Positions 34,391-62,897 of a stretch of DNA of 64,000 bases are shown one piece after another. A program made the translations under genes and the position numbers. Position 1 is the stretch's first letter. Every line of letters begins with the position of its first letter. The stretch is from Rhizobacter sp. OV335. GTDB lineage: Bacteria > Pseudomonadota > Gammaproteobacteria > Burkholderiales > Burkholderiaceae_C. The stretch lies in assembly GCF_900142965.1 (NCBI RefSeq), contig NZ_FRCQ01000003.1, positions 248,001-312,000 of the forward strand, read 5' to 3'. The notes beneath the pieces are model-generated. The model did no database searches and was not told the origin of the DNA. It worked only from the letters and a program-made list of their open reading frames with translations.

Positions 34391-34441
34391 GTTGTCTCCC
34401 GGTCGTTGATGTGAAGCAAGGGGGCCGAGGGCGGCCCGGGG

Positions 34442-36579: not shown

Positions 36580-38052
<1,473 letters not shown>

Positions 38053-38169: not shown

Positions 38170-38279
38170 CTGTCGGCGAGTCGCGACAGGCACTTGCTCC
38201 GGTCATTCTGTTCCCGTCTAATGCGCTCGCTCCGCTGTTGATCCACTCCCACGAAGAGGGTGCGACAGCGGGCCTGTCG
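38170..38279 (+). promoter_or_regulatory. RHS promoter flanked by paired CTGTCG inverted repeats
   Basis: A sigma-70-like promoter reads TTGCTC (38194-38199), a 17-base spacer and TCTAAT (38217-38222). It lies between two inverted repeats of the same hexamer. CTGTCG/CGACAG is at 38170-38175 and 38184-38189, and CGACAG/CTGTCG is at 38263-38268 and 38274-38279. The arrangement resembles an upstream and a downstream operator for one dimeric regulator. Confidence 0.5.
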
Positions 38280-38307
38280 AGGTACGCGGGTCATCAGGGA
38301 GAACTGA

Positions 38308-40818: not shown

Positions 40819-40822
40819 GAAC

Positions 40823-43213
40823 ATGAAGAAGACGATGAAGCACAACCTGACCGCCGCGGCTGCAGCGGCCTTGCTGACCCACGCGGCGATGGCCCAGGTG
40901 CCGCCCCCGCCGGTGTCGCCAACGCCGGTGACGACCTATGAGTACGACGCCGAGGGCAGTCCGACCAAGGTGACCAAGGCTCCCGAGAGTCTGAACCTGC
41001 AGAACAAGGCGAGCTACGACGCGCAATACCGCGTGAAGGAGCTGACCGACCCGAAGAACGGCAAGACCGCCATCGAGTACGACGGCGGTGGCCGACCGAC
41101 CAAGGTGACCGACCCACGCAGCCTGGTCACGCAGTACCCGCGCAACGGCTTCGGTGACGCGACACAGTTGATCAGCCCGGACACCGGCATCACCAACATC
41201 ACCTACGACGCCGCCCGGCGGCTGAAGACCCGCACCGACAGCCGCGGCGTCACCGAGACCTACACCTACGACCTGGAAGGCCGGCTGGCCAGCGTCGTCT
41301 ACACGCAGAGCGGCCAGCCGAGCCAGACCATCACGTGGAGTTGGGACCTGACCGGCCCCGACTACACCTACAGCATCGGCCGCCTGAGCCGCACCGATCA
41401 CCCGGCTGGCTTCGCCCGCGTCAAGTACGACCCACGGGGACGGATCACGGAAGCCGTGCAGTCGGTGAACGCGAAGGCCGGAGCGAACACCGTGCCGATC
41501 GTGACGACGGTGAAGTACGCCTACTCGCACGGCGACCTGATGACCATCACCTACCCGTCGGGCCGGGTGCTGGTGATCACGCGCGATGTCGGCGAGCTCA
41601 TCGGCATGAGCTTGGCCAAGGACGCGGGGAGCACGCCCGTCCCGTTGATCAGCAACGTGAAGTGGGAGCCCTTCGGCCCGGTGAGCGGCTGGGACTGGCA
41701 CATGACGAGCGGCTTGGTGCCGCACCAGCGGCAGTTCGACCTGAGCGGTCGCATCGTGCGCTACCCGATGGGTAACGCGCTGCGCGACGTGACCTACGAT
41801 GCGGCCGATCGCATCACCGGCTTCACGCACCTGCTCGCAAGCGATGGCACCGCGCAGCCCGCGTTGGACCAGAGCTTCGGCTACGACGAGAACAGCCGGC
41901 TGACCAGCATCACGACAGCCGCATCGAGCTGGTCGATCGCGTATGACCCGAACGGCAACCGCACGAGCGTGAGCCTGAACGGCAGCCCGAGCACCTACAC
42001 AACCGAGGCGACGAGCAACCGGCTCACGAGCATCACGAACCCGGCCCGCAGCTTCGGCTACGACAACGCCGGCAACACGACCAGCGACAGCGCGGGCTAC
42101 ACGGCGACCTACGGCCTGAACGGCTCGGTCGCGAGCATCACCAAGGCGGGCGTGACCGGCAGCTACGACCACGACGCCGAGCGGCGGCGCATCCGAAAGG
42201 TGACGAGCACCGGCGAGACGGTGATCTTCGTGTACGACCTCGAAGGCCAGCTACTCGGCGAATACGACCAGACCGGCAAGGCGCTGCGCGAATACGTGTG
42301 GCTGGACAACATCCCGGTGGCGATGTTCGTGTCGGATCCAGCCAACCCGAGCAACCCGCCGCTGGTGTTCTACATCCACGCCGATCACCTGAACGCGCCG
42401 CGGATTGTGGTGGACCAGAACGGCGCCAAGCGCTGGCGCTGGCTGGCCGAGCCGTTCGGTACGACGGCGCCGGAGACGAATCCGGAAGGGCTTGGGGTCT
42501 TAGTGCAGAACCTGCGGTTCCCGGGGCAGTATGCGGATGCGGAGAGCGGGCTTTGGTACAACTACTTCCGAAACTACGATCCGTTGCGCGGCTATATCCA
42601 GAGCGATCCTATTGGGTTGGCAGGAGGGAGTCCCTCGACGTACACGTACGTCGACGGCAACCCGTTGATCGGCACGGACTCCCTTGGACTTTTCAACTTC
42701 GGCAACTCTCAGCAGACTCTGCAAATCCTTGCGCCGGCTGCTGGGGCTGTCGGAGCAGTACCTGCTCTGGGCGCAGGTGCCGTGGCCGGTGGCGCTGTGG
42801 TCGGTCTTGGAGTTGGTGTGGGAATAGGTTTGGGTATCAATGCCGGAGTCGAGAGTTTGACGGGGAATTCCATTGGATCGATTCTCTATGACATTACTCA
42901 CCCCGACCCATTGAATTTGTATCCACTCAGTGACAAAGACCTTCAGAAAGCGATCGAAAAGGGTGCAAATCAAAGCGAAGCTCATCGAATTTGTGATGAA
43001 CCACCGCCCCCGGGCCTGGATCCTTGTCAACTTCTTCGATGGAATCTGACTAAACAGCTACGATGCAAAGCGGCGAGAAACAATCTTTCCAATAAATGGT
43101 TCGGTGGTCCGGATCAAGCTCACGTCGATCACATCAAGAATTATGTTGATCCAGCAATCCAAAGGTTGCGAGATGCAATTGATCGGCAATGTAAGCCCTG
43201 CCCATACAGGTGA
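40823..43213 (+). CDS. Exported RHS protein with core domain and C-terminal toxin-like tip
   Basis: A 796-residue protein with its own signal peptide (HNLTAAAAAALLTHAAMAQV) and ribosome site (AAGGAG), so it is a true second gene rather than a frameshift product. YD repeats fill residues 35-560. The RHS-associated core at 562-623 includes YADAESGLWYNYFRNYDP and the SDPIGL motif; the second, usually DPxGL, site reads TDSLGL. After residue 624 composition changes sharply. A glycine-rich hydrophobic stretch (about 640-680) leads to a Cys/His-containing domain (HRICDEPPPPG, KWFGGPDQAHVDHIKNY, RQCKPC) that looks like the variable toxin. Confidence 0.9.
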   Translation: MKKTMKHNLTAAAAAALLTHAAMAQVPPPPVSPTPVTTYEYDAEGSPTKVTKAPESLNLQNKASYDAQYRVKELTDPKNGKTAIEYDGGGRPTKVTDPRSLVTQYPRNGFGDATQLISPDTGITNITYDAARRLKTRTDSRGVTETYTYDLEGRLASVVYTQSGQPSQTITWSWDLTGPDYTYSIGRLSRTDHPAGFARVKYDPRGRITEAVQSVNAKAGANTVPIVTTVKYAYSHGDLMTITYPSGRVLVITRDVGELIGMSLAKDAGSTPVPLISNVKWEPFGPVSGWDWHMTSGLVPHQRQFDLSGRIVRYPMGNALRDVTYDAADRITGFTHLLASDGTAQPALDQSFGYDENSRLTSITTAASSWSIAYDPNGNRTSVSLNGSPSTYTTEATSNRLTSITNPARSFGYDNAGNTTSDSAGYTATYGLNGSVASITKAGVTGSYDHDAERRRIRKVTSTGETVIFVYDLEGQLLGEYDQTGKALREYVWLDNIPVAMFVSDPANPSNPPLVFYIHADHLNAPRIVVDQNGAKRWRWLAEPFGTTAPETNPEGLGVLVQNLRFPGQYADAESGLWYNYFRNYDPLRGYIQSDPIGLAGGSPSTYTYVDGNPLIGTDSLGLFNFGNSQQTLQILAPAAGAVGAVPALGAGAVAGGAVVGLGVGVGIGLGINAGVESLTGNSIGSILYDITHPDPLNLYPLSDKDLQKAIEKGANQSEAHRICDEPPPPGLDPCQLLRWNLTKQLRCKAARNNLSNKWFGGPDQAHVDHIKNYVDPAIQRLRDAIDRQCKPCPYR
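42692..43213 (+). other. Variable toxin-tip region of the RHS protein
   Basis: This stretch encodes residues 624-796. It leaves the high-GC style of the core abruptly and uses AT-ending codons, as expected of a horizontally exchanged tip. A pretoxin glycine-zipper segment comes first. The final 75 residues hold several Cys and a DQAHVDHI motif that could be catalytic or metal-binding. I cannot assign an activity. Confidence 0.6.
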
Positions 43214-43217
43214 AACC

Positions 43218-43877
43218 ATGTCCATAGAGCACGTTGACGAAGCATTGGAATTTTTCCTTGAAGGGATAGTTGTGGCGGATGAAAGCAATCCCGATGCGCT
43301 TGATCATTGGATAATGGCCTCCTCCAATGAAGAGAGGTTGAATTTTATTGGAGGAGTCTTTGATAAGATCGTTGCTTCAGATGGGGCGTTGCCTGATCCC
43401 ATTGTTTTAGGAGGACTGCGTGCAGCAATCGATCCGGGCATTACTCTCTTGCCGTACTCCATTCTTTCTGAGGACATCTCTGAAGATTCACGCAGTTTGG
43501 TGATCGAAAAGATGTATGAATGTTTCGAAGTTATTCTGAGTAGGCGTTGCGATTCGATCTTAATGAAGGACTCAAGAGTTGCTGGCGCGATTTCTGAATG
43601 GAATCTTCTCTGCTATATGTGGTGGGATATATTTCCGAGGCATGGAATTCCGAGCATTGGTTACTTGAAGGGTGCTGATAAAAAAATAATTGGCGTGTTG
43701 AAGGACATTTTGTCAATTGACAATCTGTCATGCAAGGAATCGGCGCTTCATGGACTTGGGTTGTGGTGCCTTGCCTATCCGACCGAAGTCAGTGCGTTGA
43801 TCAAGGAGGCGCATGCGTCAATTCCCGAAGAATTGAAGGATTACGCGGCAAGGGCTGCTGTCGGCAATATTCAATAG
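43218..43877 (+). CDS. Probable immunity protein for the RHS toxin tip
   Basis: A 219-residue, acidic, mostly helical protein of no family I can name. It begins 4 bases after the RHS stop with ATG at 43218 (an upstream in-frame ATG at 43104 would lie inside the toxin gene). Its base composition is low in GC, like the toxin tip. The C-terminal part, with KESALHGLGLWCLAYP and ELKDYAARAAVG, looks like a HEAT-type helical repeat. Position directly behind a polymorphic tip is the main evidence for an immunity role. Confidence 0.7.
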   Translation: MSIEHVDEALEFFLEGIVVADESNPDALDHWIMASSNEERLNFIGGVFDKIVASDGALPDPIVLGGLRAAIDPGITLLPYSILSEDISEDSRSLVIEKMYECFEVILSRRCDSILMKDSRVAGAISEWNLLCYMWWDIFPRHGIPSIGYLKGADKKIIGVLKDILSIDNLSCKESALHGLGLWCLAYPTEVSALIKEAHASIPEELKDYAARAAVGNIQ

Positions 43878-43880
43878 CAT

Positions 43881-44070
43881 TGGCCGGGACTGGCACATGG
43901 CCAGCGGCTTGGTCACTCATACGCGCTTGTTCGACTGAGCGGGCGCATCGTGCGCTACCCGCTGGGCGACGTGACCTATGACGCGGCCGACCGCATCACC
44001 GGCTTCAGGCATCTGAGTTCAATGACGGCACCGCGCAGCCTGCACTCAACCAGAGCTTCGGCTGCGACCA
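43881..44070 (+). pseudogene. Decayed fragment of a second RHS gene
   Basis: The DNA matches 41689-41885 of the upstream RHS gene over its whole length: GACTGGCACATG, GCGCATCGTGCGCTACCC, GCGGCCGACCGCATCACC and CAGAGCTTCGGCTGCGAC are recognisable. It carries a one-base loss that creates TTCGACTGA where the intact gene has TTCGACCTGAGC, a further deletion of about 12 bases, and no start. It marks where an older RHS terminus was displaced. Confidence 0.85.
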
Positions 44071-44099
44071 ATGCAGGTTTAGTTCTTATGAGATGACTC

Positions 44100-44357
44100 A
44101 TGAATAAATATTTGAAACTTTATGGGGCATCAAGATATCCCAAGCCGCCGGAAATTGTCGAGCACGATGATTTCTCTATTGCGGCGGATCCAGATACCTT
44201 TCGCAAGCTATCGAATTTCTTTTTGCAATGCGCAGCGGAGTTGGAGAATATCCGCGGAGATGCGACAAATGATTGGCACCGCCATTTCAGGGATTTCTCT
44301 GAGAACTGGACCGAAGACATGTGTGACTTGGTAGTTTGTGCGCCGCCTGTGAAGTAG
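44100..44357 (+). CDS. Orphan immunity-like small protein
   Basis: An 85-residue protein encoded in low-GC DNA directly behind the RHS remnant. The layout (HDDFSIAADPDTFRKLSNFF, a Cys-containing helix, then WHRHFRDFSENW and a C-terminal strand LVVCAPP) distantly resembles small immunity proteins of the Imm32 kind, but I hold that weakly. Together with the remnant it looks like the surviving antidote of a displaced toxin cassette. The ribosome site is poor. Confidence 0.5.
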   Translation: MNKYLKLYGASRYPKPPEIVEHDDFSIAADPDTFRKLSNFFLQCAAELENIRGDATNDWHRHFRDFSENWTEDMCDLVVCAPPVK

Positions 44358-44389
44358 TCAGTCGCCGGCTCAGCAAGTCGCACCTTTCT

Positions 44390-44440
44390 TTGCACACCTG
44401 AAACCCACCCGATACGCTCTCCCACGACGATCGCATCGTC
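44390..44440 (+). promoter_or_regulatory. Weak promoter and inverted repeat before the DUF6515-like gene
   Basis: TTGCAC (44390-44395) and TACGCT (44413-44418) are 17 bases apart and could be a promoter. GACGAT-CGC-ATCGTC (44426-44440) is a perfect inverted repeat placed just before the CAGGAGAC ribosome site, where it could act as an operator or mask translation. Confidence 0.35.
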
Positions 44441-44452
44441 CAGGAGACCGAC

Positions 44453-45106
44453 ATGGCAACCATCCAGCGATTCGTGTTGACCGGTGCGATCCTCGCGCTG
44501 GCAGTTCTTTCAGGCATGACCCAGGCCCAGGAGCGCCACGGCCGCGGCGGCCCGCCGCCCGGCTACCGCTCCCCGCACTGGCAGTTCGACAACCGCTACC
44601 ACCACGACCACTACTACCCGTCGCGCGGGTATGTCGCCGCGGCGCTGCCGGGCGGCAGCATCAGCATCGGGTTCCACGGCGGCAACTACTTCTACCAAGG
44701 CGGCGTCTGGTTCCGCCCGCAGGGCCCGCGCTACGTCGTCGTCGCGCCGCCGTTCGGCATCGTCGTGCCGCTGCTGCCGCCGGCCTACACCACGCTCTAC
44801 ATCGGCGGCGCGCCGTACTACTACGCGAACGGTGCGTACTACGCGACCGCGCCGGGCGGTTATGCCGTGGTCGAGCCGCCACCGGGCGCCGATGCCGCGC
44901 AACCGGCACCGGTTCCGCCGCCGCCGAAGCCCGAGCCGGATCCGATCCTCTACCCGCGCACCGGTCAGAGCCCAGCGCAGACCGAGGCCGACCGCCAGGA
45001 ATGCAACCGCTGGGCGACCACGCAGCCGGCGGCGATGGCGGATGCCTCCGTCTTCCAGCGCGCAGTGGCGGCCTGCATGGACGGGCGCGGCTACACGGTT
45101 CGGTGA
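44453..45106 (+). CDS. Secreted proline/tyrosine-rich protein, DUF6515-like
   Basis: A 217-residue exported protein with a Sec signal peptide (to about residue 26, MTQAQ). A His/Arg-rich stretch (RHGRGGPPPGYRSPHWQFDNRY region) follows. The core then has GGSISIGFHGGNYFYQGGVWFR and GIVVPLLPPAYTTLYIGGAPYYYANGAYY, a pattern shared with DUF6515 proteins. A proline-rich linker and a C-terminal helical segment with two cysteines (RQECNRWATTQ and AACMDGRGY) complete it. Function is unknown; a cell-envelope role is likely. Confidence 0.75.
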   Translation: MATIQRFVLTGAILALAVLSGMTQAQERHGRGGPPPGYRSPHWQFDNRYHHDHYYPSRGYVAAALPGGSISIGFHGGNYFYQGGVWFRPQGPRYVVVAPPFGIVVPLLPPAYTTLYIGGAPYYYANGAYYATAPGGYAVVEPPPGADAAQPAPVPPPPKPEPDPILYPRTGQSPAQTEADRQECNRWATTQPAAMADASVFQRAVAACMDGRGYTVR

Positions 45107-45193: not shown

Positions 45194-46096
45194 ATGCGCC
45201 TGCCCACCCTCCTGCTGTTGCTCTGTTGCCTCGCCGGAACGGCGCGGGCGCAGGTGCAGTCGGATGCATCCACGTCAGATGACCTGCTGGTCCGCCTGAC
45301 GCGCGACGAAGCCGTCGCCTACGAAAACGGCGAAGGCGTGCCGCGCGATCCGGTGCGCGCCGCGCAGCTGTATTGCCAGGCCGCCCGCCAGGGCGACGCC
45401 GAATCGCAATACAACCTCGCGTGGATGTACGCGAACGGTCGCGGCATCGACCGCAACGACGCGACCGCCTCGTTCTTCTTCCACGCTGCCGCCGAGCAGG
45501 GCCTGCCGCAGGCGGTGCGCATGCTCGAACGCGTCGGCCAGCCCGGCACCGACATTCCCGATTGCATGCGCCCGCCCGCACCGGTGGTCGCCGCCGCGGT
45601 GCAGGCCACGCCCGCCGCCGCCGCACCCGCTGCCGAGCTGCGCAGCAACGGTCCGAAGTACATCGTCGACCTGGTGAAGACCATCGCACCGGAGTACCGC
45701 GTCGACCCGCAGCTCGCGCTCGCGTTCATCCAGGTCGAGTCGAACTTCGACGTGGTCGCGCAGTCGCCGAAGAACGCACAGGGCCTGATGCAGCTGATCC
45801 CCGAGACCGCGGCCCGCTTCAACGTGAAGCGGCCGTTCGACCCGGCGCAGAACATCCGCGGCGGGCTCGCCTACATCCGCTGGCTGCTCGCCTATTACCG
45901 GGGCGACGTGACGCTGGTCGCCGCCGCCTACAACGCCGGTGAAGGCGCGGTGAACCGCTACCGCGGCGTGCCGCCGTATGCCGAGACGCTGGGCTACGTG
46001 AGCCGCATCCTGAAGTCGTCGCGCATGCTGACGCACCCGTTCGACACCACGGTCACCGAGGCCTCACCGCAGCTCGCGGTCATGCGCAAGTTCTAG
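45194..46096 (+). CDS. Lytic transglycosylase with N-terminal Sel1 repeats
   Basis: A 300-residue periplasmic murein hydrolase. A signal peptide (to TARAQ) is followed by two Sel1-like repeats (YENGEGVPRDPVRAAQLYCQAA and MYANGRGIDRND...). An Ala/Pro linker leads to an SLT domain. The catalytic glutamate is E182 in FIQVESNFD, with SPKNAQGLMQLIPETAARF and YNAGEGAVNRYRGVPPY as the other SLT motifs. It cleaves the glycan strand to anhydromuramyl ends. The gene is free-standing between two regulatory gaps. Confidence 0.92.
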   Translation: MRLPTLLLLLCCLAGTARAQVQSDASTSDDLLVRLTRDEAVAYENGEGVPRDPVRAAQLYCQAARQGDAESQYNLAWMYANGRGIDRNDATASFFFHAAAEQGLPQAVRMLERVGQPGTDIPDCMRPPAPVVAAAVQATPAAAAPAAELRSNGPKYIVDLVKTIAPEYRVDPQLALAFIQVESNFDVVAQSPKNAQGLMQLIPETAARFNVKRPFDPAQNIRGGLAYIRWLLAYYRGDVTLVAAAYNAGEGAVNRYRGVPPYAETLGYVSRILKSSRMLTHPFDTTVTEASPQLAVMRKF

Positions 46097-46242: not shown

Positions 46243-46257
46243 TGGCACGTCGCTTGC
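46243..46257 (+). promoter_or_regulatory. Sigma-54 (RpoN) promoter of the PHB-utilisation operon
   Basis: TGGCACG-TCGC-TTGC has the strict GG-N10-GC spacing (GG at 46244-46245, GC at 46256-46257) and matches the RpoN consensus at every conserved position. Transcription would begin near 46269, leaving a leader of about 37 bases with a CAGGAGAC ribosome site before the ATG at 46306. Confidence 0.85.
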
Positions 46258-46305
46258 GCTGTGCTGGTGCACGCGCTTCCCCATTCCAATAAAACAGGAG
46301 ACAGC

Positions 46306-47511
46306 ATGACCGCGACCCGACAGCGCCCGATGGCGCTGCTGGCCTGCCTTGCCCTGGCCGGCGCTTTGATCGCCGCCGCCGGCGCGCAGGCGCAGACCCA
46401 GGACATTCGCATCGCCCACGTCTACAGCAAGACCGGCCCGCTCGAGGCCTACGGCAAGCAGACGCAGACCGGCTTCATGATGGGGCTCGACTACGCGACC
46501 GGCGGCACGATGACGGTGGCCGGCCGCAAGCTCACGGTGATCGAGCGCGACGACCAGGGCAAGCCCGACGTCGGCAAGAGCCAGCTCGCCGCGGCCTATG
46601 GCGACGACAAGGCCGACATCGCGGTCGGCCCGTCGTCGTCGGGCGTCGCGCTGGCGCTGCTGCCGGTGGCCGAGGAGTACAAGAGAGTGCTGCTCGTCGA
46701 GCCCGCGGTCGCCGATTCGATCACCGGCGACAAGTGGAATCGCTACATCTTCCGCACCGGCCGCAACAGCTCGCAGGACGCCATCGCGAATGCGGTCGCG
46801 CTCGACAAGCCCGGCGTCACGATCACGACGCTCGCGCAGGACTACGCGTTCGGGCGCGACGGCGTGAAGGCCTTCAAGGAGTCGATCAAGAAGGCGAAGC
46901 TGATCGACGGCGAGTACCTGCCGACCAGCACCACCGACTTCACCGCCGGCGCGCAGCGCCTGATCGACAAGCTGAAGGACCAGCCCGGCCGCAAGATCAT
47001 CTGGATCCTGTGGGCCGGCGCCGGCAACCCGTTCAAGATCGCCGACCTCGACCTGAAGCGCCACGGCATCGAGATCGCGACCGGCGGCAACATCCTGCCG
47101 GCGATGGCCGCGTACAAGAACTTCCCCGGCATGGAAGGCGCCACCTACTACTACTTCGGCATCCCGAAGAACCCGGTCAACGAATGGCTGGTGGCGAACC
47201 ACTACAAGCAGTTCAAGACACCGCCGGATTTCTTCACCGCGGGCGGCATGAGCGCGGCGATCGCGGTCGTCGAGGCGCTGAAGAAGACGCAGGGCGCGAC
47301 CGCCACCGACAAGCTGATTGCCGCAATGGAAGGCATGGCCTTCGAGACGCCGAAGGGCCGCATGGTGTTTCGCAAGGAGGATCACCAGGCGATGCAGAGC
47401 ATGTACCACTTCCGCATCAAGGCCGACCCGGCCTTCGCCTGGGGCGTGCCGGAGCTGGTGCGCGAGATCAAGCCCGACGAGATGGACGTGCCGATCCGCA
47501 ACAAGCGCTGA
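46306..47511 (+). CDS. LivK-like ABC substrate-binding protein, possibly for 3-hydroxybutyrate or oligomers
   Basis: A 401-residue periplasmic receptor. The signal peptide ends near GAQAQT, and the mature part starts DIRIAHVYSKTGPLEAYGKQ. It is a type 1 binding fold with the hallmark VGPSSSGVALALLPVAEEYKR and TLAQDYAFGRDGVKAF segments. Receptors of this family bind branched-chain amino acids, urea, amides or organic acids. Here a PHB depolymerase follows directly, so I infer a ligand made by that enzyme. It is the first gene after the sigma-54 promoter. Confidence 0.88.
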   Translation: MTATRQRPMALLACLALAGALIAAAGAQAQTQDIRIAHVYSKTGPLEAYGKQTQTGFMMGLDYATGGTMTVAGRKLTVIERDDQGKPDVGKSQLAAAYGDDKADIAVGPSSSGVALALLPVAEEYKRVLLVEPAVADSITGDKWNRYIFRTGRNSSQDAIANAVALDKPGVTITTLAQDYAFGRDGVKAFKESIKKAKLIDGEYLPTSTTDFTAGAQRLIDKLKDQPGRKIIWILWAGAGNPFKIADLDLKRHGIEIATGGNILPAMAAYKNFPGMEGATYYYFGIPKNPVNEWLVANHYKQFKTPPDFFTAGGMSAAIAVVEALKKTQGATATDKLIAAMEGMAFETPKGRMVFRKEDHQAMQSMYHFRIKADPAFAWGVPELVREIKPDEMDVPIRNKR

Positions 47512-47545
47512 GCAACGTCCACTAACCCACCAAGGAGACATCACG

Positions 47546-48985
47546 ATGAAGAACCGGTTCGCCAGGATCGGGGCTGCGGCCTCGCTCGTGTTCGCTGCGG
47601 CCTGCCAGGCCACCCCGCTGCCGCAACTGCAGATCGACCCCGCCGAGGTCAGCGTGTCCGGCCTGTCGTCCGGCGGCTTCATGGCGGTGCAGATGCACGT
47701 TGCCTACTCGGCCACCTTCAAGCGCGGTGCCGGCATCGTGGCCGGCGGGCCGTATTACTGTGCCGAAGGCTCGATCGTCAACGCGACCGGCCGCTGCATG
47801 ACGCACGCCAGCACCATCCCCGTCAGCAGCCTCGTCAGCACCACCAACAGCTGGGCCACGAGCGGCCTGATCGACCCGGTATCGAATCTCACCAACTCGA
47901 AGGTCTACCTCTACTCCGGCACCTCCGACAACACCGTCAAGCAAGCGGTGATGAACGACCTGAAGACCTACTACCAGAGCTTCGTGCCGGCGGCGAACCT
48001 CTTCTACAAGAACACCATCGCGTCCGGCCACGCGATGATCACCGACGACTACGGCAGCAGCTGTGCCACGACCGCGTCGCCCTACATCAACGACTGCGAT
48101 TTCGACCTCGCCGGTGAGATCCTGAAGCAGCTGCACGGCACGCTGAACCCGCGCAACAACGGCACGCTGTCGGGCACGTTCACCGAGTTCGACCAGACCG
48201 CCTTCATCTCCGGCCACGGCATGGCCACCACCGGCTGGGTCTACGTGCCGCAGAGCTGCAGCACGGGCGCCGTGTGCAAGCTGCACGTGGTGTTCCACGG
48301 CTGCCAACAGAACACCGCGCTGGTCGGCCAGCAGTACGTGCGCAACACCGGCTACAACCGCTGGGCCGACACCAACAACATGGTCGTGCTGTACCCGCAG
48401 ACCAGCACGCAGGCCACCAACAGCTGCTGGGACTGGTGGGGGTATGACAACGCGAACTACGCGAAGAAGTCCGGTCCGCAGATGGCGGCGGTGCGCGCGA
48501 TGATGACGACGCTGGGCAGCGGCTCGGCACCGTCCGGCCTGCCGGCTCCCACCGGCGTCGGCACCTCGGGCGCGACCGCCAGCAGCATGGTGATCGGCTG
48601 GGGCAGCGTCAGCGGCGCGAGCGGCTACAACGTGTACCGCGGCGGCAGCAAGGTCAACGCGAGCCTCATCGCGGGCACGAGCTACACCGACACCGGGCTG
48701 GCCGCCGGCACCACCTACTCCTGGACGGTGAAGGCGGTCGATGGCGGCGGCGTCGAAGGGCCGTCGTCTGCTGCTGCCACCGGCACCACCACCGGCGCAC
48801 CGCCGGCCGCCACCTGCACCACCGCGAGCAACTACGCGCACGTCGCGGCCAATCGCGCGCACGTGCAGGGCGGCTATGCGCTCGCGAACGGCTCGAACCA
48901 GAACATGGGGCTATGGAATCTCTTCGTCACGACGACGCTGAAGATGACCGGCACCAACTTCTACGTGATCGGAACCTGCCCTTGA
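47546..48985 (+). CDS. Extracellular short-chain PHA (PHB) depolymerase
   Basis: A secreted 479-residue esterase. After the signal peptide (to about residue 23) comes a type 2 catalytic domain with the lipase box near its start, GLSSG with S41 as nucleophile. HVVFHGCQQNT is the oxyanion segment, and the cysteines are probably disulfide-bonded. A fibronectin type III linker (about 335-420) and a short C-terminal polymer-binding domain (NYAHVAANRAHVQGG to VIGTCP) complete it. It hydrolyses solid poly-3-hydroxybutyrate outside the cell. An AAGGAGAC ribosome site precedes the ATG, 35 bases after the receptor gene. Confidence 0.92.
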   Translation: MKNRFARIGAAASLVFAAACQATPLPQLQIDPAEVSVSGLSSGGFMAVQMHVAYSATFKRGAGIVAGGPYYCAEGSIVNATGRCMTHASTIPVSSLVSTTNSWATSGLIDPVSNLTNSKVYLYSGTSDNTVKQAVMNDLKTYYQSFVPAANLFYKNTIASGHAMITDDYGSSCATTASPYINDCDFDLAGEILKQLHGTLNPRNNGTLSGTFTEFDQTAFISGHGMATTGWVYVPQSCSTGAVCKLHVVFHGCQQNTALVGQQYVRNTGYNRWADTNNMVVLYPQTSTQATNSCWDWWGYDNANYAKKSGPQMAAVRAMMTTLGSGSAPSGLPAPTGVGTSGATASSMVIGWGSVSGASGYNVYRGGSKVNASLIAGTSYTDTGLAAGTTYSWTVKAVDGGGVEGPSSAAATGTTTGAPPAATCTTASNYAHVAANRAHVQGGYALANGSNQNMGLWNLFVTTTLKMTGTNFYVIGTCP

Positions 48986-49740
48986 ATGCCTGACGCCCCG
49001 ATGCTCGAGACCCAGGACCTCACCATCCGCTTCGGCGGCCACGTCGCGGTCGACCGCGTCAGCTGCAGCTTCGAGGCCGGCACGCTGACCGCGATCGTCG
49101 GGCCGAACGGTGCCGGCAAGACGACGTACTTCAACCTGGTCTCGGGCCAGCTGCGCGCGAGCGCCGGCCGCGTGCGCCTGCACGGCGTCGACATCACCGC
49201 CGAAGGCCCGGCCGCGCGCACGCAGCACGGCATCGGCCGGGCCTTCCAGCTCACCCAGCTGTTCCCCGGCCTGCCGGTGCGCGAGAACGTGCGGCTGGTC
49301 GTGCAATCGCGGGCGCGGCTCGGCCTGAACCTGTGGTCGGTGTGGCGCGACCACCGCGACACGCTCGAACGCACACAGGCGCTGCTCGAACAGGTGCGCC
49401 TCACCGATCAAGCAGACCGGCTTGCCGGCAGCCTGCCGCACGGCGACCAGCGCAAGCTGGAGGTCGCGATGCTGATGGCGCTGGAGCCGCGCGTCTTCAT
49501 GTTCGACGAGCCCACTGCCGGCATGAGCGTCGACGAGGTCCCCGTGGTGCTGGACCTGATCCGCATGCTGAAGGCGCGCCGCGATTGCGCGATCCTGCTG
49601 GTCGAGCACAAGATGGACGTGGTGCGCGAACTCGCCGACCGCATCGTCGTGCTGCACAACGGCCAGCTCGTCGCCGACGGCGAGCCCGACATCGTGATCG
49701 CGTCGCCGATCGTGCAGCAGGCCTACCTGGGGCTGGCGGC

Positions 49741-49744
<4 letters not shown>
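48986..49744 (+). CDS. livG: LivG-type ABC transporter ATPase
   Basis: A 252-residue cytoplasmic ATPase of the branched-chain-type importer. Walker A is GPNGAGKTT, the GIGRAFQLTQLFPGL loop is typical of LivG, and Walker B is VFMFDEPTAGM. The signature motif reads LPHGDQRKLEVAM instead of LSGGQ, which is common in this family. The ATG follows the depolymerase stop without a gap, so translation is coupled. Confidence 0.93.
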
Positions 49745-50465
<721 letters not shown>

Positions 50466-50469
<4 letters not shown>

Positions 50470-51461
50470 GCACCACGCTGCCCCGTTCGTCGTTCGACTG
50501 GCTTCCGATCGCGCTGGTGCCGCTGCTCGCGCTCGCCGCCTGGCCGCTGATCGGCTCGTCGTCGAGCTGGCTGACGCTGACCGTCGCCGGCCTCGCGATG
50601 GGGATGATCGTCTTCATCGTCGCGTCGGGCCTGACGCTGGTGTTCGGCCTGATGGACGTGCTGAACTTCGGCCACGGCGTGTTCATCGCGTTCGGCGCCT
50701 TCATCGCGACCAGCGTGCTCGGCGGCCTGGCCGACTGGACCGGCGCCGACAGCCTGTGGCTGAACCTGGCGGCGCTGTTCCCGGCGATGCTGGCCGCGAT
50801 GGCGCTGGCCGCCGCGGTGGGCTGGGCCTTCGAGCGCGTGCTGGTGCGCCCGGTCTACGGCCAGCACCTGAAGCAGATCCTGATCACGATGGGCGGCATG
50901 ATCATCGGCGAGGAGCTGATCAAGGCGATCTGGGGCCCGGCGCTGATCCCGTTGTCGCTGCCGCAGGCGCTGCGCGGCGTGTTGGCGCTCGGCGATGCGT
51001 CGGTCGAGAAGTTCCGGCTGCTCGCCACCGGCCTCGGCGCCATCGTGCTGGCCGCGATGCTGTACACGCTGAACCGCACCAAGCTCGGCCTGCTGGTGCG
51101 CGCCGGCGTGCAGGACCGCGAGATGGTCGAGGCCCTCGGCTACCCGGTGCGCACGCTGTTCGTCGGCGTGTTCGTCGCCGGCTCGGCGCTGGCCGGGCTC
51201 GGCGGCTCGCTGTGGGCGCTGTACCAGCAGGGCGTGGTGCCGCAGATCGGCGCGCAGCTGAACGTGCTGATCTTCATCGTGATCATCATCGGCGGGCTCG
51301 GCTCGACACTCGGCTGCTTCGTCGGCGCGCTGCTGGTCGGGCTGCTCGCCAACTACACCGGCTTCCTGTGGCCGAAGGTCGCGCTGTTCTCGAACATCGG
51401 GCTGATGGTCGCGGTGCTGCTGTGGCGCCCGCGCGGGCTGTACCCGGTGAGTTCGCGATGA
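50466..51461 (+). CDS. livH: LivH-type ABC transporter permease
   Basis: A 331-residue inner-membrane permease with 8-9 hydrophobic spans. GLTLVFGLMDVLNFGHGVFIAFGAF is the LivH signature, and the cytoplasmic coupling loop is seen in RAGVQDREMVEALGYPV. It pairs with the following permease. ATGA overlaps on both sides. Confidence 0.92.
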
Positions 51462-52522
51462 GGGCTCGCCCGCTGGACCGCCTGCTGTCGCACGACTTGC
51501 CGCGCAGCCGACCGCTCGCGGCGCTGCTGGTCGCCATCGTGCTCGGCCTCGCGCTGACGCCGTTCGTGTTCCCCGGCACGCAGGCGATGAACGTCGCCGC
51601 CAAGGTGATGGTCTTCATCGTGCTGGTCGCGAGCTTCGACCTGCTGCTCGGCTACACCGGCATCGTCAGCTTCGCGCACACGATGTTCTTCGGCATCGGC
51701 GCCTACGGCATCGCGATCGCCAGCACGCGGCTCGGGCCGGGCTGGCTTGCGCTGGCGCTGGGCGTCGCGGTGGCGCTCGCGGTCTCGCTGGTGCTGTCGC
51801 TCGTGATCGGCCTGTTCAGCCTGCGCGTGAAGGCGATCTTCTTCGCGATGATCACGCTGGCGGTGGCCTCGGCCTTCCTGACGCTCGCGTCGCAGCTGTC
51901 GGACTGGACCGGCGGCGAAGACGGCCTGAGCTTCCGCTTGCCTGAAGCCTTGAGCGACCGCCGGGTCGCGTACTACCTGCTGTTCGCATGCGCCACCGCG
52001 CTGGTGCTCGCGATGCTGCGCATCGTCAACTCGCCGTTCGGCCGCGTGCTGCAGGCGATCCGCGAGAACGACTTCCGCGCCGAGGCGATCGGCTACCGCA
52101 CGGTGGTGTACCGCACGCTGTCGAACGTGCTGTCGGCGCTGTTCGCGACGCTCGCCGGTTGCCTGCTCGCGCTCTGGCTGCGCTACAACGGGCCGGACAC
52201 CTCGCTGAGCTTCGAGATCATGCTCGACGTGCTGCTGATCGTCGTGATCGGCGGCATGGGCACGGTGTATGGCGCGGTCATCGGCAGCCTGCTGTTCGTG
52301 CTGGCGCAGAGCTACCTGCAGAACCTGATGGCGCTCGCGGCGCCGCTGGTGGGTGGCGTGCCGCTGCTCTCCACGCTGATCTCGCCCGAGCGCTGGCTGT
52401 TGTGGCTCGGGGTTCTCTTCGTGCTGTCGGTCTACCACTTCCCGAACGGGATCGTGGGGCGGCTGCGTGCGATGCGAACAAGCCAGCCGGCCCATCCCAC
52501 CCAGAAGGAGACATCGCCATGA
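51458..52522 (+). CDS. livM: LivM-type ABC transporter permease
   Basis: A 354-residue permease. FDLLLGYTGIVSFAHTMFFGIGAY is the LivM signature, and LQAIRENDFRAEAIGYRTVVYR is the coupling loop. GGMGTVYGAVIGSLLFVL precedes the final spans. The C-terminal tail extends to overlap the oligomer hydrolase start as ATGA, which ties the hydrolase to the transporter operon. Confidence 0.92.
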   Translation: MRARPLDRLLSHDLPRSRPLAALLVAIVLGLALTPFVFPGTQAMNVAAKVMVFIVLVASFDLLLGYTGIVSFAHTMFFGIGAYGIAIASTRLGPGWLALALGVAVALAVSLVLSLVIGLFSLRVKAIFFAMITLAVASAFLTLASQLSDWTGGEDGLSFRLPEALSDRRVAYYLLFACATALVLAMLRIVNSPFGRVLQAIRENDFRAEAIGYRTVVYRTLSNVLSALFATLAGCLLALWLRYNGPDTSLSFEIMLDVLLIVVIGGMGTVYGAVIGSLLFVLAQSYLQNLMALAAPLVGGVPLLSTLISPERWLLWLGVLFVLSVYHFPNGIVGRLRAMRTSQPAHPTQKETSP

Positions 52523-54714
52523 AGATGAACCTGCACCCGCTCACGCTCGCCGCCCTCGGACTGTCTGCCGTGGCCCTCGCCGGCTGCGGCAGCGACGACG
52601 ACACGCCGCCGCCCGTCAACGCGCTGCCTGCCAACGTCACGCAGCAGTCGGTGACGGACTATCCCGCGACCACCGTCGGCAGCGGCAGCACCGCGGCCAC
52701 GCAGGACCTGCTGACCGGTGGTCTTGGCAAGTCCGGCCTGATCTTGACCGCGCCCACCCCCACCTACGCCGACCCGCTGAACCCGACCGCCGCCGAGCTG
52801 CGCCGCAACGCGCTGTTCAGCAACTACCGCGGCTTGGTCGACGTGAGCGCGGCCGGCGGCTACGGCACGCTGTACGGCCCGAACGTCGATGTGACCGGCC
52901 AGGCGACGACCGGCGAAGGGCTGATCCCGGGTCGCGAGTACGTCGCGGTGCTGGACAACGCGGGCGGCACCAAGCGGGTCGCGATTGCGGTGCAGATCCC
53001 CGACACCTTCAACCAGAGCGCGCCCTGCCTCGTGCTCGGCCCGTCGTCCGGCTCGCGCGGCGTGTATGGCGCGATCGCGACCTCGGCCGAGTGGGGCCTG
53101 AAGCACGGCTGCGCGGTCGCGCTGACCGATGCCGGCAAGGGCATGGGCCTGTACGACATGAGCGACGACACGGTGACCCGCATCGACGGCACACGCGTGA
53201 CGCGCGCTGCGGCCGGTGCCACCAGCTCGTTCGCCGCCGCGGTGACCGACACCGCGCGCGCCACGTACAACGCGCTGTGGCCGAACCGGCTGTCGCTGAA
53301 GCAGGCGCACTCGCAGCAGAACGCCGAGAAGGACTGGGGCAGCGACACGCTGGTGGCCGCCGCCTACGCGCTGTATGCGTTGAACGATCGCTACGGCAAC
53401 GCGGCCGCGCCGCTGCCGTTCACCGCGGCGAACACGCTCGTGATCGCCGGCTCGGTGTCGAACGGTGGCGCCGCGGTGCTGCGTGCAGCGGAGGCCGACT
53501 CAACTGGCCTGATCGACGGCGTGGTCGCCGGCGAACCGGTCACCGAGCTGCCGACCACCACCGGCTACGGCGTGCAGTTCGGCGGCGTGGCGGTCATCGG
53601 CTACGGCAAGAAGCTGGGCGATTTCACGACCTTCGGCAACGTCTACCAACCCTGCGCCGCGCTGGCCGTGGGCGCGGCGATGGCCGAGAGCTCGACCTTC
53701 AACTACCTCGTCGCGACCGCGCAGACCGGCAAGGCCGCGGCTCGTTGCACCGGCCTCGCGGCCAAGGGGCTGGTGAGCGGCGCCGACACCGCGGCGCAAT
53801 CGGCAGATGCATTGGCGAAGCTGCGCGCCTACGGCTGGACCGCCGACAACGACCAGATGCACAACGCGCACTACGCGCTCGGCAACGGGCCGATCCTGTC
53901 GGCCATGTACCCGATGATGTACGGCCGCTTCTCGGCGATCGACAACCTGTGCAACACGAGCTTCGCGCAGGTGGATGCCGGCGGCAACCCGATCGCGGCG
54001 CTTGCGACGAGCAAGGCGCCGAGCTTCGCGACCGGCAACGGCACGGCCAACGGGTCGCCGGCCAGCGTGGTCTACAACGACTCCGTCGGTGGCGCGAAGC
54101 TGTGGTCGGTGGCGACCTCGGTGTCGACCGGCGTGCAGGACTTCGGTCTCGACAACGCGCTGTGCCAGCGCGCGCTGGTGACCGGCGTCGACGAGACCGG
54201 CGCGGCGCTGACGGCCACCGCCACGTCGACGCGCCCGACCGCGGCGCAGGCCGCCGCCGTGCAGGCCGGCATGGCCGAGGTGGTGGTCAACGGCAACCTG
54301 CGCGCGAAGCCGGCGCTGGTGGTGGCGGGCCGCAGCGATGCGCTGGTGCCGGTCAACAACAACGCGCGGGCCTATGTGGCGTTCAACAAGACGGTGGAGG
54401 CGGCGGCGAGCAAGCTGGGCTACATCGAGGTGGCGAACGCGCAGCACTTCGACGGCTTCCTGTCGTTCGCCGGCTTCGACACCCGCTTCGTGCCGCTGCA
54501 CGTGTACTTCAACCGCGCGATGGACGCGATGTATGCGCACCTGAAGACCGGCGCCGCGCTGCCGCCCAGCCAGGTGGTGCGGGCAACGCCGCGTGGCGGC
54601 CTGCCGGGTGCGGCACCGGCGATCACCGCGGGCAACGTACCGGCGATCAGCGCGACGCCGCTGGTGGCCGACCAGATCGGGTTCAGCGGCACGTCGGTGG
54701 CCGTTCCGAACTGA
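52519..54714 (+). CDS. D-3-hydroxybutyrate-oligomer hydrolase, lipoprotein
   Basis: A 731-residue member of the 3HB-oligomer hydrolase family, which cleaves soluble 3-hydroxybutyrate oligomers released by PHB depolymerase into monomers. The signal peptide ends in the lipobox LAGC, so it is probably membrane-anchored facing the periplasm or surface. Nucleophile S314 lies in GSVSNGG, the arrangement seen in characterised members. Other landmarks are LVLGPSSGSRGVYGAIATSAEWGLKHG and YGRFSAIDNLCNTSFA. The start at 52519 overlaps livM, with AAGGAGAC upstream. Confidence 0.92.
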   Translation: MKMNLHPLTLAALGLSAVALAGCGSDDDTPPPVNALPANVTQQSVTDYPATTVGSGSTAATQDLLTGGLGKSGLILTAPTPTYADPLNPTAAELRRNALFSNYRGLVDVSAAGGYGTLYGPNVDVTGQATTGEGLIPGREYVAVLDNAGGTKRVAIAVQIPDTFNQSAPCLVLGPSSGSRGVYGAIATSAEWGLKHGCAVALTDAGKGMGLYDMSDDTVTRIDGTRVTRAAAGATSSFAAAVTDTARATYNALWPNRLSLKQAHSQQNAEKDWGSDTLVAAAYALYALNDRYGNAAAPLPFTAANTLVIAGSVSNGGAAVLRAAEADSTGLIDGVVAGEPVTELPTTTGYGVQFGGVAVIGYGKKLGDFTTFGNVYQPCAALAVGAAMAESSTFNYLVATAQTGKAAARCTGLAAKGLVSGADTAAQSADALAKLRAYGWTADNDQMHNAHYALGNGPILSAMYPMMYGRFSAIDNLCNTSFAQVDAGGNPIAALATSKAPSFATGNGTANGSPASVVYNDSVGGAKLWSVATSVSTGVQDFGLDNALCQRALVTGVDETGAALTATATSTRPTAAQAAAVQAGMAEVVVNGNLRAKPALVVAGRSDALVPVNNNARAYVAFNKTVEAAASKLGYIEVANAQHFDGFLSFAGFDTRFVPLHVYFNRAMDAMYAHLKTGAALPPSQVVRATPRGGLPGAAPAITAGNVPAISATPLVADQIGFSGTSVAVPN

Positions 54715-54718
54715 AACC

Positions 54719-55561
54719 GTGGTCGCCTTCACCTCGCACTACGTCGCCTGCGAAGGCCGCGAACTCCACTACACCGAGTGGGGCGCCGGCCGCGCCGAGA
54801 CCGTGATCGCCTGGCACGGCCTCGCGCGCACCTGCCGCGACATGGACGAGGTGGCGGCGCACCTGTCGCAGCGCTTCCGCGTGATCTGCCCGGACACGCT
54901 GGGCCGCGGCTTGAGCGAATGGAGCCGCGATCCCGAGCGCGAGTACTGCCTGGCGTTCTACGTGCAGCAGGCGGTGTCGCTGGTCGACCAGCTGGGGCTG
55001 CACGAGGTTCATTGGCTGGGCACGTCGATGGGTGGGGCGATCGGCACGCTGGCGGCGGCGGGGCTCTTGCGAGGCCGCATCCGCAAACTGGTGCTGAACG
55101 ACAACGGACCGGAGCTCGCCGAGCCGGCGATCGCGCGCATCCGCGGCTATGCAGGCCGGCCGGCGGCCTTCGAGACGGTGAGCGAGCTGGAGCGGTACTT
55201 CCGCAAGATCTACCAGCCCTACGGCTGGCTGAGCGACGGCCAGTGGCGGCGCCTGACCGAGACCTCGACGCGCCGCCTGCCCGACGGCCGCGTGACGCCG
55301 CACTACGACCCGGCGATGGTGATGCAGTTCACCCACCACGACGACGACTACGGGCTGTGGGATGCGTGGGACACGCTGACGCTGCCGGTGCTGTGCCTGC
55401 GCGGCGAGCACTCCGACCTGCTGCTACCCGAGGTCGCCGAGCAGATGCGCCGGCGCGGCCCGTGCGCGCAGGTGGTGACCGTGCCGGGCTGCGGGCATGC
55501 GCCGGCGTTGAACGTGCCGGAGCAGTTGACGGCGGTGGAGCGGTTCTTGATGGCGCCGTAA
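54719..55561 (+). CDS. Alpha/beta hydrolase at the end of the PHB operon
   Basis: A 280-residue cytoplasmic hydrolase without a signal peptide. The start is GTG at 54719, four bases after the oligomer-hydrolase stop. Oxyanion segment is AWHGLARTCRDMDEV, nucleophile S103 lies in GTSMGG, acid residue probably in LCLRGEHSDLL, and the histidine in VPGCGHAPAL. It could cleave imported 3-hydroxybutyrate dimers or esters, which would suit an intracellular finishing enzyme; the substrate is inference from context. It is the last gene of the operon. Confidence 0.82.
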   Translation: MVAFTSHYVACEGRELHYTEWGAGRAETVIAWHGLARTCRDMDEVAAHLSQRFRVICPDTLGRGLSEWSRDPEREYCLAFYVQQAVSLVDQLGLHEVHWLGTSMGGAIGTLAAAGLLRGRIRKLVLNDNGPELAEPAIARIRGYAGRPAAFETVSELERYFRKIYQPYGWLSDGQWRRLTETSTRRLPDGRVTPHYDPAMVMQFTHHDDDYGLWDAWDTLTLPVLCLRGEHSDLLLPEVAEQMRRRGPCAQVVTVPGCGHAPALNVPEQLTAVERFLMAP

Positions 55562-56093: not shown

Positions 56094-58105
<2,012 letters not shown>

Positions 58106-58108
58106 GGC

Positions 58109-59272
58109 CTACTTGCCTCCAGGAACCTTGCCTTCGACGCCCTTGACGAAGAACTTGATGCCGCTCATGAACTTGTCGTCGGCGACCTCGTCCTTCTTCA
58201 GCACTTCCTTGCCGTCGTTGCCGACGATCGGGCCCTTCCAGATCGCGAAGCTGCCGTCCTTCAGGCCGGCCTTCACCTTCTCGACCTTGTCCTTCAGCTC
58301 GGCCGGCACCTTGTCGGAGATCGACACCAGGTCGATCGCGCCTTCCTTGACGCCCCACCACGACGCGCTGTTGCCGGTCCACTTGCCGTCCAGTGCATCC
58401 TTGGTCGCCTTGATGTAGTACGGCCCCCAGTTGATGACGCTCGAGGCCAGGTGGGCCTTCGGGCCGTAGGCGGTCATGTCGCTGTCCCAGCCGAACGCGT
58501 ACTTGCCGGCCTTCTCGGCCGTCTGCAGCACCGCGCTCGAATCGGTGTTCTGCATCAGCACGTCGGCGCCGCCGTTGATCAGCGATTGCGCGGCCTCGGT
58601 CTCCTTCGGCGGGTTGAACCATTCGTTGACCCAGACCACCTTGGTCTTGATCTTCGGGTTCACCGACTGCGCACCCAGCGTGAAGCTGTTGATGTTGCGG
58701 ATCACCTCGGGGATCGGGATCGAGCCGACCACGCCCAGCGTGTTGGTCTTGGTCATGCCGCCGGCGATCACGCCGGCCATGTACGCGCCTTCATAGGTGC
58801 GGCTGTCGTAGGTGCGCATGTTCTCGGCCTGCTTGAAGCCGGTGGCATGCTCGAACTTCACGTCCTTCAGGTCGGCCGCGACCTTCAGCATCGGCTCCAT
58901 GTAGCCGAAGGTGGTGCCGAAGATCAGCTTGTTGCCCTGGCCGGCCATGTCGCGGAACACCCGTTCGGCATCGGCCGCCTCGGGCACCTTCTCGACGAAG
59001 CTGGTCTGGATCTTGTCGCCGAATTCCTTCTCGAGCGCCTTGCGCGCGTTGTCGTGCGCGAAGGTCCAGCCGCCGTCACCGACCGGGCCGACGTAGGCGA
59101 ACGCGATCTTCAGCGGCTCGGGCTTCGGCGCCGGGGCCGACGCGGCGGCCACCGGGGTCGGCGCCGGCGCGGGCGCCTCTTCCTTCTTGCCGCAGCCCAC
59201 CAGCGCGGTGCCGGCCGCCAGCGTGCTCCACCCTGCGAGCTTCAGCAGGGCACGTTTCGAGAATGAGGTCAT
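58109..59272 (-). CDS. BMP-family nucleoside/purine ABC substrate-binding lipoprotein
   Basis: A 387-residue lipoprotein receptor (lipobox LVGC at the end of a leader that begins SFSKRALLKLAGWST). The mature part starts after an Ala/Pro linker with KIAFAYVGPVGDGGWTFAHDNAR, the BMP/Med signature whose Trp stacks on the base. GADVLMQNTDSSAVLQTAEKAG is the sugar-binding-like second motif. It delivers purine nucleosides or bases to the permeases encoded upstream. Confidence 0.92.
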   Translation of the reverse strand: MTSFSKRALLKLAGWSTLAAGTALVGCGKKEEAPAPAPTPVAAASAPAPKPEPLKIAFAYVGPVGDGGWTFAHDNARKALEKEFGDKIQTSFVEKVPEAADAERVFRDMAGQGNKLIFGTTFGYMEPMLKVAADLKDVKFEHATGFKQAENMRTYDSRTYEGAYMAGVIAGGMTKTNTLGVVGSIPIPEVIRNINSFTLGAQSVNPKIKTKVVWVNEWFNPPKETEAAQSLINGGADVLMQNTDSSAVLQTAEKAGKYAFGWDSDMTAYGPKAHLASSVINWGPYYIKATKDALDGKWTGNSASWWGVKEGAIDLVSISDKVPAELKDKVEKVKAGLKDGSFAIWKGPIVGNDGKEVLKKDEVADDKFMSGIKFFVKGVEGKVPGGK

Positions 59273-59311
59273 GGGAACTCCAGGGTGAGGAACGCAAGAA
59301 TTTATCAGCAG

Positions 59312-62887: not shown

Positions 62888-62897
62888 CGCTGTCCCC

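Follow-up and report, generated by a model that had tools for sequence, protein, structure and literature searches.

A Liv-type ABC transporter operon with polyhydroxybutyrate-degrading enzymes in Rhizobacter: a candidate importer of 3-hydroxybutyrate or its short oligomers

What does an ATP-binding cassette (ABC) importer of the Liv type carry when its genes share an operon with enzymes that degrade the bacterial polyester polyhydroxybutyrate (PHB)? The question is raised by an eight-gene operon on the plus strand (46306–55561) of a 64,000-nucleotide stretch of DNA from Rhizobacter sp. OV335 (contig NZ_FRCQ01000003.1, positions 248,001 to 312,000), here called the window, in which a receptor gene is followed by genes for a PHB depolymerase, the four Liv-type components in the order livG, livF, livH and livM, a 3-hydroxybutyrate (3HB)-oligomer hydrolase (3HBOH) and an alpha/beta hydrolase. 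A first-pass annotation of the window had proposed that degradation and uptake form one unit, with 3HB or its short oligomers, instead of the amino acids usually assigned to Liv systems, as the imported compounds. Our comparative analysis suggests that the best reading is indeed an importer of 3HB and/or short oligomers under sigma-54 control, one that we regard as quite probable, because genes for 3HB dehydrogenase join the receptor–Liv operon in three distant groups of bacteria and because the depolymerases and the oligomer hydrolases found in it each come from more than one lineage. The depolymerase itself, however, is not the partner that defines the operon.

The eight-gene operon as such is confirmed: the order and strand of all its genes are as first annotated, the outer coordinates exactly so, and the genes are joined by short gaps or overlaps. 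The depolymerase ATG (47546) follows the end of the receptor gene (47511) after 34 bases, the livG ATG (48986) directly abuts the depolymerase stop, 4-base overlaps occur at the livG/livF, livF/livH, livH/livM and livM/3HBOH junctions, and the last hydrolase starts with GTG (54719) 4 bases past the 3HBOH stop. The family assignment of each gene is backed by Pfam and NCBIfam profiles, and a search of other Burkholderiales finds the same order widely, with or without both PHB enzymes, so that it can hardly be a product of chance. To this we add a sigma-54-type site (46243–46258) in front of the receptor gene and an activator gene (36580–38052) further upstream. The encoded set seems to cover cutting outside the cell, trimming in the envelope, import and cutting inside.

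Genes that join the receptor operon

The strongest clue to the ligand is the linkage to 3HB dehydrogenase. In a genus of the same class but another order (g181), a 3HB dehydrogenase gene directly follows livM in all four genomes with the receptor (loci L217, L221, L222 and L223), and the product exceeds the NF009931 and NF009093 cut-offs in all three cases scanned. Both receptor genomes of a Burkholderiales family (f23) carry the series receptor, depolymerase, LivGFHM, thiolase-like protein, AMP ligase and 3HB dehydrogenase-like protein; one of these two dehydrogenases scores 1.5 bits above and the other 6.6 bits below the NF009093 cut-off, and both stay below that of TIGR01963. The third case is Mariluticola halotolerans (Hyphomicrobiales, Alphaproteobacteria), where the genes run, by their RefSeq names, sigma-54 regulator, 3HB dehydrogenase, substrate-binding protein (the receptor), two ATPases and two permeases (LivGFHM) and alpha/beta hydrolase; the dehydrogenase reaches 369.8 bits with TIGR01963 against a cut-off of 307, and the regulator and hydrolase are 47% and 51% identical to those of the window. 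Such dehydrogenase genes are rare, since only one of the 77 TIGR01963 matches in the window's genome passes the cut-off. That genome's own 3HB dehydrogenase gene lies elsewhere (L287, G000:C27), in divergent orientation to a gene whose product is a paralog (39.8%) of the last hydrolase in the operon.

An independent hint comes from Alcanivorax sp. 24. According to PMC7187450, two proteins become much more abundant in the exoproteome on PHB: ALC24_2998, a periplasmic binding protein, whose share grows from 0.32% to 7.33% (log2 4.4), and ALC24_2995, an NHL-repeat protein, whose share grows from 0.28% to 15.79% (log2 5.4). As receptors for 3HB import the authors suggest ALC24_2998 and, with more specificity, another protein, the keto-acid receptor 2082. 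In the g181 loci, two genes (TetR-like and enoyl-CoA-hydratase-like by reading) separate the receptor gene from that of an NHL-repeat protein, the same spacing as between 2998 and 2995, and on the basis of this spacing ALC24_2998 is probably an ortholog of the g181 receptor. The NHL-repeat protein, of about 820–843 amino acids, is encoded near the receptor in all four g181 loci named above and is possibly a counterpart of ALC24_2995.

PHB enzymes were added to the operon more than once. The place behind the receptor is taken by depolymerases of two supported lineages (10 of 16 entries of one, 31 of 35 of the other), the state of that place changes at least eight times on the receptor tree, and location in this operon changes at least five times on the 3HBOH tree. 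Changes were counted on supported branches, a change being a gain, a loss or a replacement; the trees are quick FastTree inferences with several long branches, in which L048 and L172 are not trusted, and the receptor tree comprises 130 loci that remained after identical receptors and loci with less than 7.5 kb behind the receptor had been dropped. As controls we took six other Liv loci (probably two sets of three orthologs), among which PHB or 3HB partners or the promoter occur in none.

The receptor locus was compared across 60 relatives, 80 named loci (a biased sample, being the best of at least 585 matches), 250 genomes of the order, 349 of the phylum, and the respective orders to which two distant carriers belong. 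The receptors group in a tight subfamily, of which 23 of the 36 genomes searched in the window's family have a copy of at least 63% identity; beyond the family it is thinly spread: 19 of the 250 order genomes and 20 of the 349 phylum genomes have one, as do 8/244 and 34/195 genomes of the two other orders, with identities outside the window's order of 50–68%. Loci were read for 18 of the 19 order carriers (G172, with its receptor at a contig end, was left out), for 17 of the 34 carriers in the order of genome G349, which were fetched for the purpose, and for all of the 8 carriers of the other distant order and the 20 of the phylum. The commonest unit, found in 97 of 130 distinct complete loci, is receptor–livG–livF–livH–livM plus an alpha/beta hydrolase, the position of which varies (it precedes the receptor in L188, L192 and L199). 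The conserved core is thus the receptor and livGFHM together with a hydrolase that has no export signal, and the depolymerase and 3HBOH are accessory. As side observations, tandem duplicate receptor genes (74–77% to the query) stand just upstream of the main one in L125, L130, L135 and L158, and genes for TonB-dependent receptors (identified by Pfam in L068 and L195) adjoin the receptor gene in L068, L070, L073, L082, L083, L088, L188, L195, L198 and L200, a possible outer-membrane route for oligomers.

The idea that the depolymerase defines the operon was accordingly rejected: it stands behind the receptor in only 6/21 complete loci of relatives, 29/74 of the named loci and 4/18 of the order sample, and is thus missing from most homologous loci in all three, an outcome that the first-pass annotation had itself named as refuting its reading. 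For 3HBOH, proximity to the receptor was recorded in 6/21, 32/74 and 2/18 loci, respectively. Although accessory, the type-2 depolymerase is usually joined to the receptor where a genome has both: they are side by side in 9 of 13 such relatives (in two more the depolymerase lies beside a second receptor type) and in four of five order genomes. Receptor and 3HBOH are together in two of the four order genomes that have both.

Six loci of three families (L094, L201, L247, L257, L258 and L280) show linkage of 3HBOH to a second Liv cassette that has a receptor of another kind (SBP11); two of them (L094 and L201) also have a depolymerase and one (L280) a 3HB-dehydrogenase-like gene (63%). The cassette is also present in L085, L086 and L090, and by its recurrence near 3HBOH, depolymerase or 3HB-dehydrogenase-like genes it is a second candidate importer for PHB products. 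A further Liv-type receptor, SBP16, was noticed in L067 (15094–16242), L072, L132, L158, L165, L201 and L280, where it either separates 3HBOH from the last hydrolase or lies next to 3HBOH or depolymerase.

The receptor, the transporter and the enzymes

The operon encodes a complete importer set of the Liv (HAAT) kind, namely a PF13458 receptor, two PF02653 permeases and two PF00005 (ABC_tran) ATPases. Amino acids are the substrates usually assigned to this architecture, and automatic annotation does label the permeases as branched-chain amino acid transport, yet all five subunits fall below the curated cut-offs. The receptor scores 51.9 bits with LivJ/K (cut-off 477), the other components reach 194.1/362 (LivG), 165.2/441 (LivF), 66.3/379 (LivH) and 71.2/366 bits (LivM), and the urea-transporter profiles give 52.4/492.75 (UrtA), 147.4/250.3 (UrtB), 119.3/296.2 (UrtC), 207.5/304.1 (UrtD) and 210.4/285.8 bits (UrtE).

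The binding pocket points the same way. The leucine-holding residues of LivJ are Ser79, Thr102, Tyr150 and Glu226, the last being the acidic residue for the alpha-ammonium group of the bound amino acid. In a low-identity sequence alignment, the Glu226 column is Ile, Thr or Leu in all 22 receptors compared and acidic in none, Ser79 is kept, Thr102 is replaced by Ala and Tyr150 by Phe. The pocket predicted in this way disfavours an alpha-amino acid and would fit a hydroxy acid or ester. With PHB and 3HB genes recurring here and in none of the control Liv loci, we consider an amino acid or amide substrate very unlikely, and the candidature of the protein as a known amino-acid or urea receptor was rejected on the missed cut-offs and the non-acidic column.

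Among solved structures, the receptor matches 3n0x (586 bits) and 3nnd (562 bits) over nearly its whole mature length; their source organism is presumably Rhodopseudomonas palustris. No paper or ligand for either entry (each titled 'Possible substrate binding protein of ABC transporter system') turned up in our literature search, and the main text of a binding screen in R. palustris (PMC3223731) does not mention them.

The enzymes fit degradation of PHB at successive places. The depolymerase scores 409.8 bits with NF050059 (cut-off 280) and carries an additional fn3 domain; its catalytic domain aligns with the solved PHB depolymerase 2d80 and the mutant 2d81 such that Ser41, Asp128 and His162 fall on the catalytic triad of these structures. 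By reading it has a leader, and a permissive lipobox pattern (AAAC) also fits the window protein; the pattern fits seven of 47 homologs and not the nearest kin, L063 and L064. The match of 3HBOH to PF10605 covers residues 2–688 of 688 at 909.9 bits (gathering score 27), and a lipobox is found in 37 of 44 homologs that have a complete start and lie beside Liv genes. None of 102 homologs of the last hydrolase has a lipobox; the GTSMG Ser103 and the His260 of this enzyme are invariant in 10 of 10 aligned sequences.

A sigma-54-type promoter, an activator and the flanking genes

Of 116 receptor genes with more than 70% identity, 93 are preceded by a sigma-54 site that matches at least 10 of 12 positions of the −24/−12 consensus; among dinucleotide shuffles the figure is 128 of 3100. 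An activator gene is located within about 10 kb of the receptor, mostly just upstream, in 18/21, 63/74 and, in the order sample, 8/18 loci. By sequence alone, the operon thus has both marks of a sigma-54 unit, a site in front of its first gene and, linked to it, an activator of the PF00158 family. The window activator contains GAYTGA and is 64% identical (E 1.8e-186) to the activator located just upstream of the receptor in L067, for which a Pfam scan returned PF00158, PAS and HTH_8.

The activator of the window lies 8 kb upstream of its receptor gene because some 6.5 kb of DNA (38044–44548) with Rhs/YD-repeat-like genes (38308–40818 and 40745–43213, by reading) has entered between it and the transglycosylase/receptor unit. 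The insertion is missing in G006 (L064), where matching DNA resumes 0.24 kb past the activator, and in G002 (L063) DNA related to it is found upstream of the transglycosylase/receptor unit, at a contig end. Transglycosylase-like homologs also stand between activator and receptor in L064 and L205. Outside the receptor operon, homologs of the activator are found beside the depolymerases of the second cassette (L085, L086 and L090) and, at 51–54%, close to 3HBOH genes, adjacent in L243 and at a distance of 3.2 kb in L246.

Divergent from the activator, a cluster on the minus strand (31031–35791), named by reading and homology, encodes an acyl-CoA/malonyl-CoA synthase, an enoyl-CoA hydratase, a Bug/Tct-like receptor and a malonyl-CoA decarboxylase, which raises the alternative of malonate or another dicarboxylate as the substrate. 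The cluster has homologs in L064, L066 and L205, with the decarboxylase homologs again divergent from the activator, a malonyl-CoA synthase in L065 scores 806.7 bits (cut-off 558), and genes for TctA of the tripartite tricarboxylate transporter occur near the activator in several loci (beside it in L078, L118, L158, L165 and L185, a few kb away in L067, where Pfam supports the name, and in L132, among others). However, these flanking genes change between genera and the activator–receptor pair persists, the cluster has a Bug/Tct-like receptor of its own, and malonate would need neither the hydrolase nor a 3HB dehydrogenase. We therefore rejected malonate as the main substrate, a weak explanation that we consider very unlikely.

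The features are listed in table 1. Downstream of the operon, an ABC cluster resembling the BMP/nucleoside type (58109–63998, minus strand) is accompanied by an adenosine-deaminase-like gene (56094–57131), both known from reading of open reading frames only.

Table 1. Features of the operon and its upstream region in the window.
Feature	Position	Strand	Basis or remark
PAS/AAA+/Fis sigma-54 activator (EBP), probable operon regulator	36580..38052	+	64% identity to L067 activator
Lytic-transglycosylase-like gene between activator and receptor	45194..46096	+	named by reading
Sigma-54 (−24/−12) promoter-like site, TGGCACG-TCGC-TTGCG	46243..46258	+	11/12 scored positions
Periplasmic receptor (REC), Peripla_BP_6 PF13458, 401 aa with leader	46306..47511	+	Pfam; 3n0x match
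PHB depolymerase of the extracellular kind, catalytic domain type 2, fn3 and C-terminal domains, 479 aa	47546..48985	+	NF050059
livG-type ATPase	48986..49744	+	PF00005; under curated LivG and UrtD cut-offs
livF-type ATPase	49741..50469	+	PF00005; under curated LivF and UrtE cut-offs
livH-type permease	50466..51461	+	PF02653 (BPD_transp_2), 112.5 bits
livM-type permease	51458..52522	+	PF02653 (BPD_transp_2), 124.4 bits
3HB-oligomer hydrolase (3HBOH), PhaY1 type, lipoprotein-type leader (LAGC)	52519..54714	+	PF10605, 909.9 bits
Alpha/beta hydrolase (ABH), 280 aa, GTG start, no leader seen, presumed cytosolic	54719..55561	+	PF12697/PF00561

A proposed pathway and its known counterparts

Several observations weigh against import of 3HB or its oligomers. 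Most homologous loci have no depolymerase, and both this enzyme and 3HBOH are missing from 80 of 130 distinct loci; when relatedness is allowed for on the receptor tree, the correlation of depolymerase and 3HBOH co-presence is not significant. Conversely, a Liv cluster is missing from 16 of 20 fetched 3HBOH loci elsewhere and from all 19 depolymerase loci elsewhere, one of them with a lone livF-like match (some of both sets are on short contigs), and receptors L210, L225 and L226 lack a Liv cluster of the window's kind. The 17 loci examined from the order of G349 include neither a 3HB dehydrogenase nor the activator, and four of them have a hydrolase of the window's kind (three more have another alpha/beta hydrolase family, one of them scanned). 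Six plasmid-borne loci include a 3HB dehydrogenase once and the trio of AMP ligase, enoyl-CoA hydratase and MaoC four times; five of them have an annotated alpha/beta hydrolase behind livM, of which only that of Mariluticola is close to the window's. Named alphaproteobacterial loci are often beside the same trio with no 3HB dehydrogenase, and the Haematobacter locus is beside acyl-CoA dehydrogenases. The sigma-54 site precedes only 4 of 22 receptors of 60–70% identity and, as a good site, none of 17 below 60%, and a scan of upstream DNA gave no good site before the Cupriavidus receptors. Finally, the Alcanivorax match is founded on gene spacing, the mapping of LivJ residues on an alignment at low identity, and the window activator is flanked by malonate-type genes.

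Neighbours such as AMP ligase, enoyl-CoA hydratase, MaoC and acyl-CoA dehydrogenase genes in Alphaproteobacteria mean that the ligand may belong to a broader class of short acids. The main rival is, therefore, a general importer of short-chain (hydroxy)acids or esters (3HB, acetoacetate, crotonate, 3-hydroxyvalerate or branched short acids) to which PHB users added a depolymerase and an oligomer hydrolase. The depolymerase-free core of most loci would fit it, as would the AMP ligases, enoyl-CoA hydratases, MaoC or thiolase-like genes of alphaproteobacterial and some Burkholderiales loci and the acyl-CoA ligase gene between livM and 3HBOH in the Cupriavidus locus L175. However, wherever a gene scores as a dedicated dehydrogenase it is that for 3HB, and the recurrent additions in Burkholderiales are PHB enzymes; we give this explanation a substantial minority chance, well short of even. 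It overlaps with import of 3HB or its oligomers, as a broad receptor that takes 3HB fits both, and the probabilities of the two do not sum to one.

If the window's importer does take up 3HB and/or short oligomers, the operon would be a polyester-utilisation operon founded on a receptor-specific Liv-type ABC importer. The PAS-containing sigma-54 activator would detect the supply of 3HB and switch on the promoter before the receptor gene; the depolymerase would be secreted and cleave PHB to oligomers and monomer, and the lipoprotein 3HBOH, in the periplasm or at the outer membrane, would shorten the oligomers further. The receptor would then bind 3HB and/or short oligomers for import by LivGFHM, the cytosolic hydrolase may cleave imported esters to 3HB, and this would be oxidised by the 3HB dehydrogenase encoded elsewhere in the genome. 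A more specific version, that intact 3HB oligomers, and not the monomer alone, are bound by the Liv-type receptor, imported and split in the cytosol under the sigma-54 activator, after crossing the outer membrane (through a TonB-dependent receptor where a relative has the gene for one next to that of the Liv-type receptor), is put forward tentatively, as its chance falls only a little short of even.

Should the proposed function hold, the receptor family, found across several proteobacterial orders, would be the first known ABC importer of PHB breakdown products; to our knowledge, no earlier one exists. The many species with a depolymerase-free locus may then scavenge oligomers freed by others, and the family would help to separate PHB degraders from such scavengers. 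The analysis names one gene family, with a conserved operon, promoter, activator and partner hydrolase and with members in such relatives as Variovorax, Acidovorax, Cupriavidus and Mariluticola, and the function proposed for it would call for re-annotation of a clade of transporters now labelled 'branched-chain amino acid'.

How does such a system compare with what is known? HbuT of Bacillus subtilis and BhbP of Pseudomonas putida share with it the uptake of 3HB, presumed or annotated, and differ in being single-component permeases instead of a receptor-dependent ABC importer; we know of no joining of either to a depolymerase. A review (PMC8000602) describes the 3HB uptake system as unknown apart from the presumed HbuT, its reference list includes a 2015 paper whose title speaks of a membrane transporter that B. 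subtilis requires for 3HB uptake, and BhbP is named as a 3HB permease in PMC6296734. No description of an ABC importer of 3HB was found in the text available to our literature search, which left subscription journals mostly outside.

For the hydrolases, the closest known enzymes are two 3HB-oligomer hydrolases of Cupriavidus necator, PhaY1 and the intracellular type PhaY2. The operon's 3HBOH is of the same PF10605 kind as PhaY1 (H16_A2251), and a gene of this type stands behind receptor–LivGFHM in C. necator SHC 2-3. PhaY2 (H16_A1335) is listed as a 3HB-oligomer hydrolase in the passages retrieved from PMC3430594 and PMC3734047, and its Azohydromonas homolog, listed as an 870-base alpha/beta hydrolase in an excerpt of PMC11767486, matches the operon's last gene in size and fold, as compared by description only. 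The retrieved passages of these three papers link neither enzyme to a transporter.

The LivJ/LivK–LivHMGF system of Escherichia coli (HAAT, 3.A.1.4) has the same type I PF13458 receptor and the same set of subunits; the window's transporter differs from it in scores below the cut-offs, in the hydrophobic residue or Thr of the Glu226 column in 22/22 receptors, in its linkage to PHB and 3HB genes and in its sigma-54-type promoter. As a whole, the operon may be likened in concept to the polysaccharide utilisation loci, with which it would share a secreted depolymerase, an envelope hydrolase, a dedicated importer and an activator of its own, and in some relatives a TonB-dependent receptor; no SusD was seen, and the window's locus differs in having a Liv-type ABC importer and, as its predicted substrate, a polyester.

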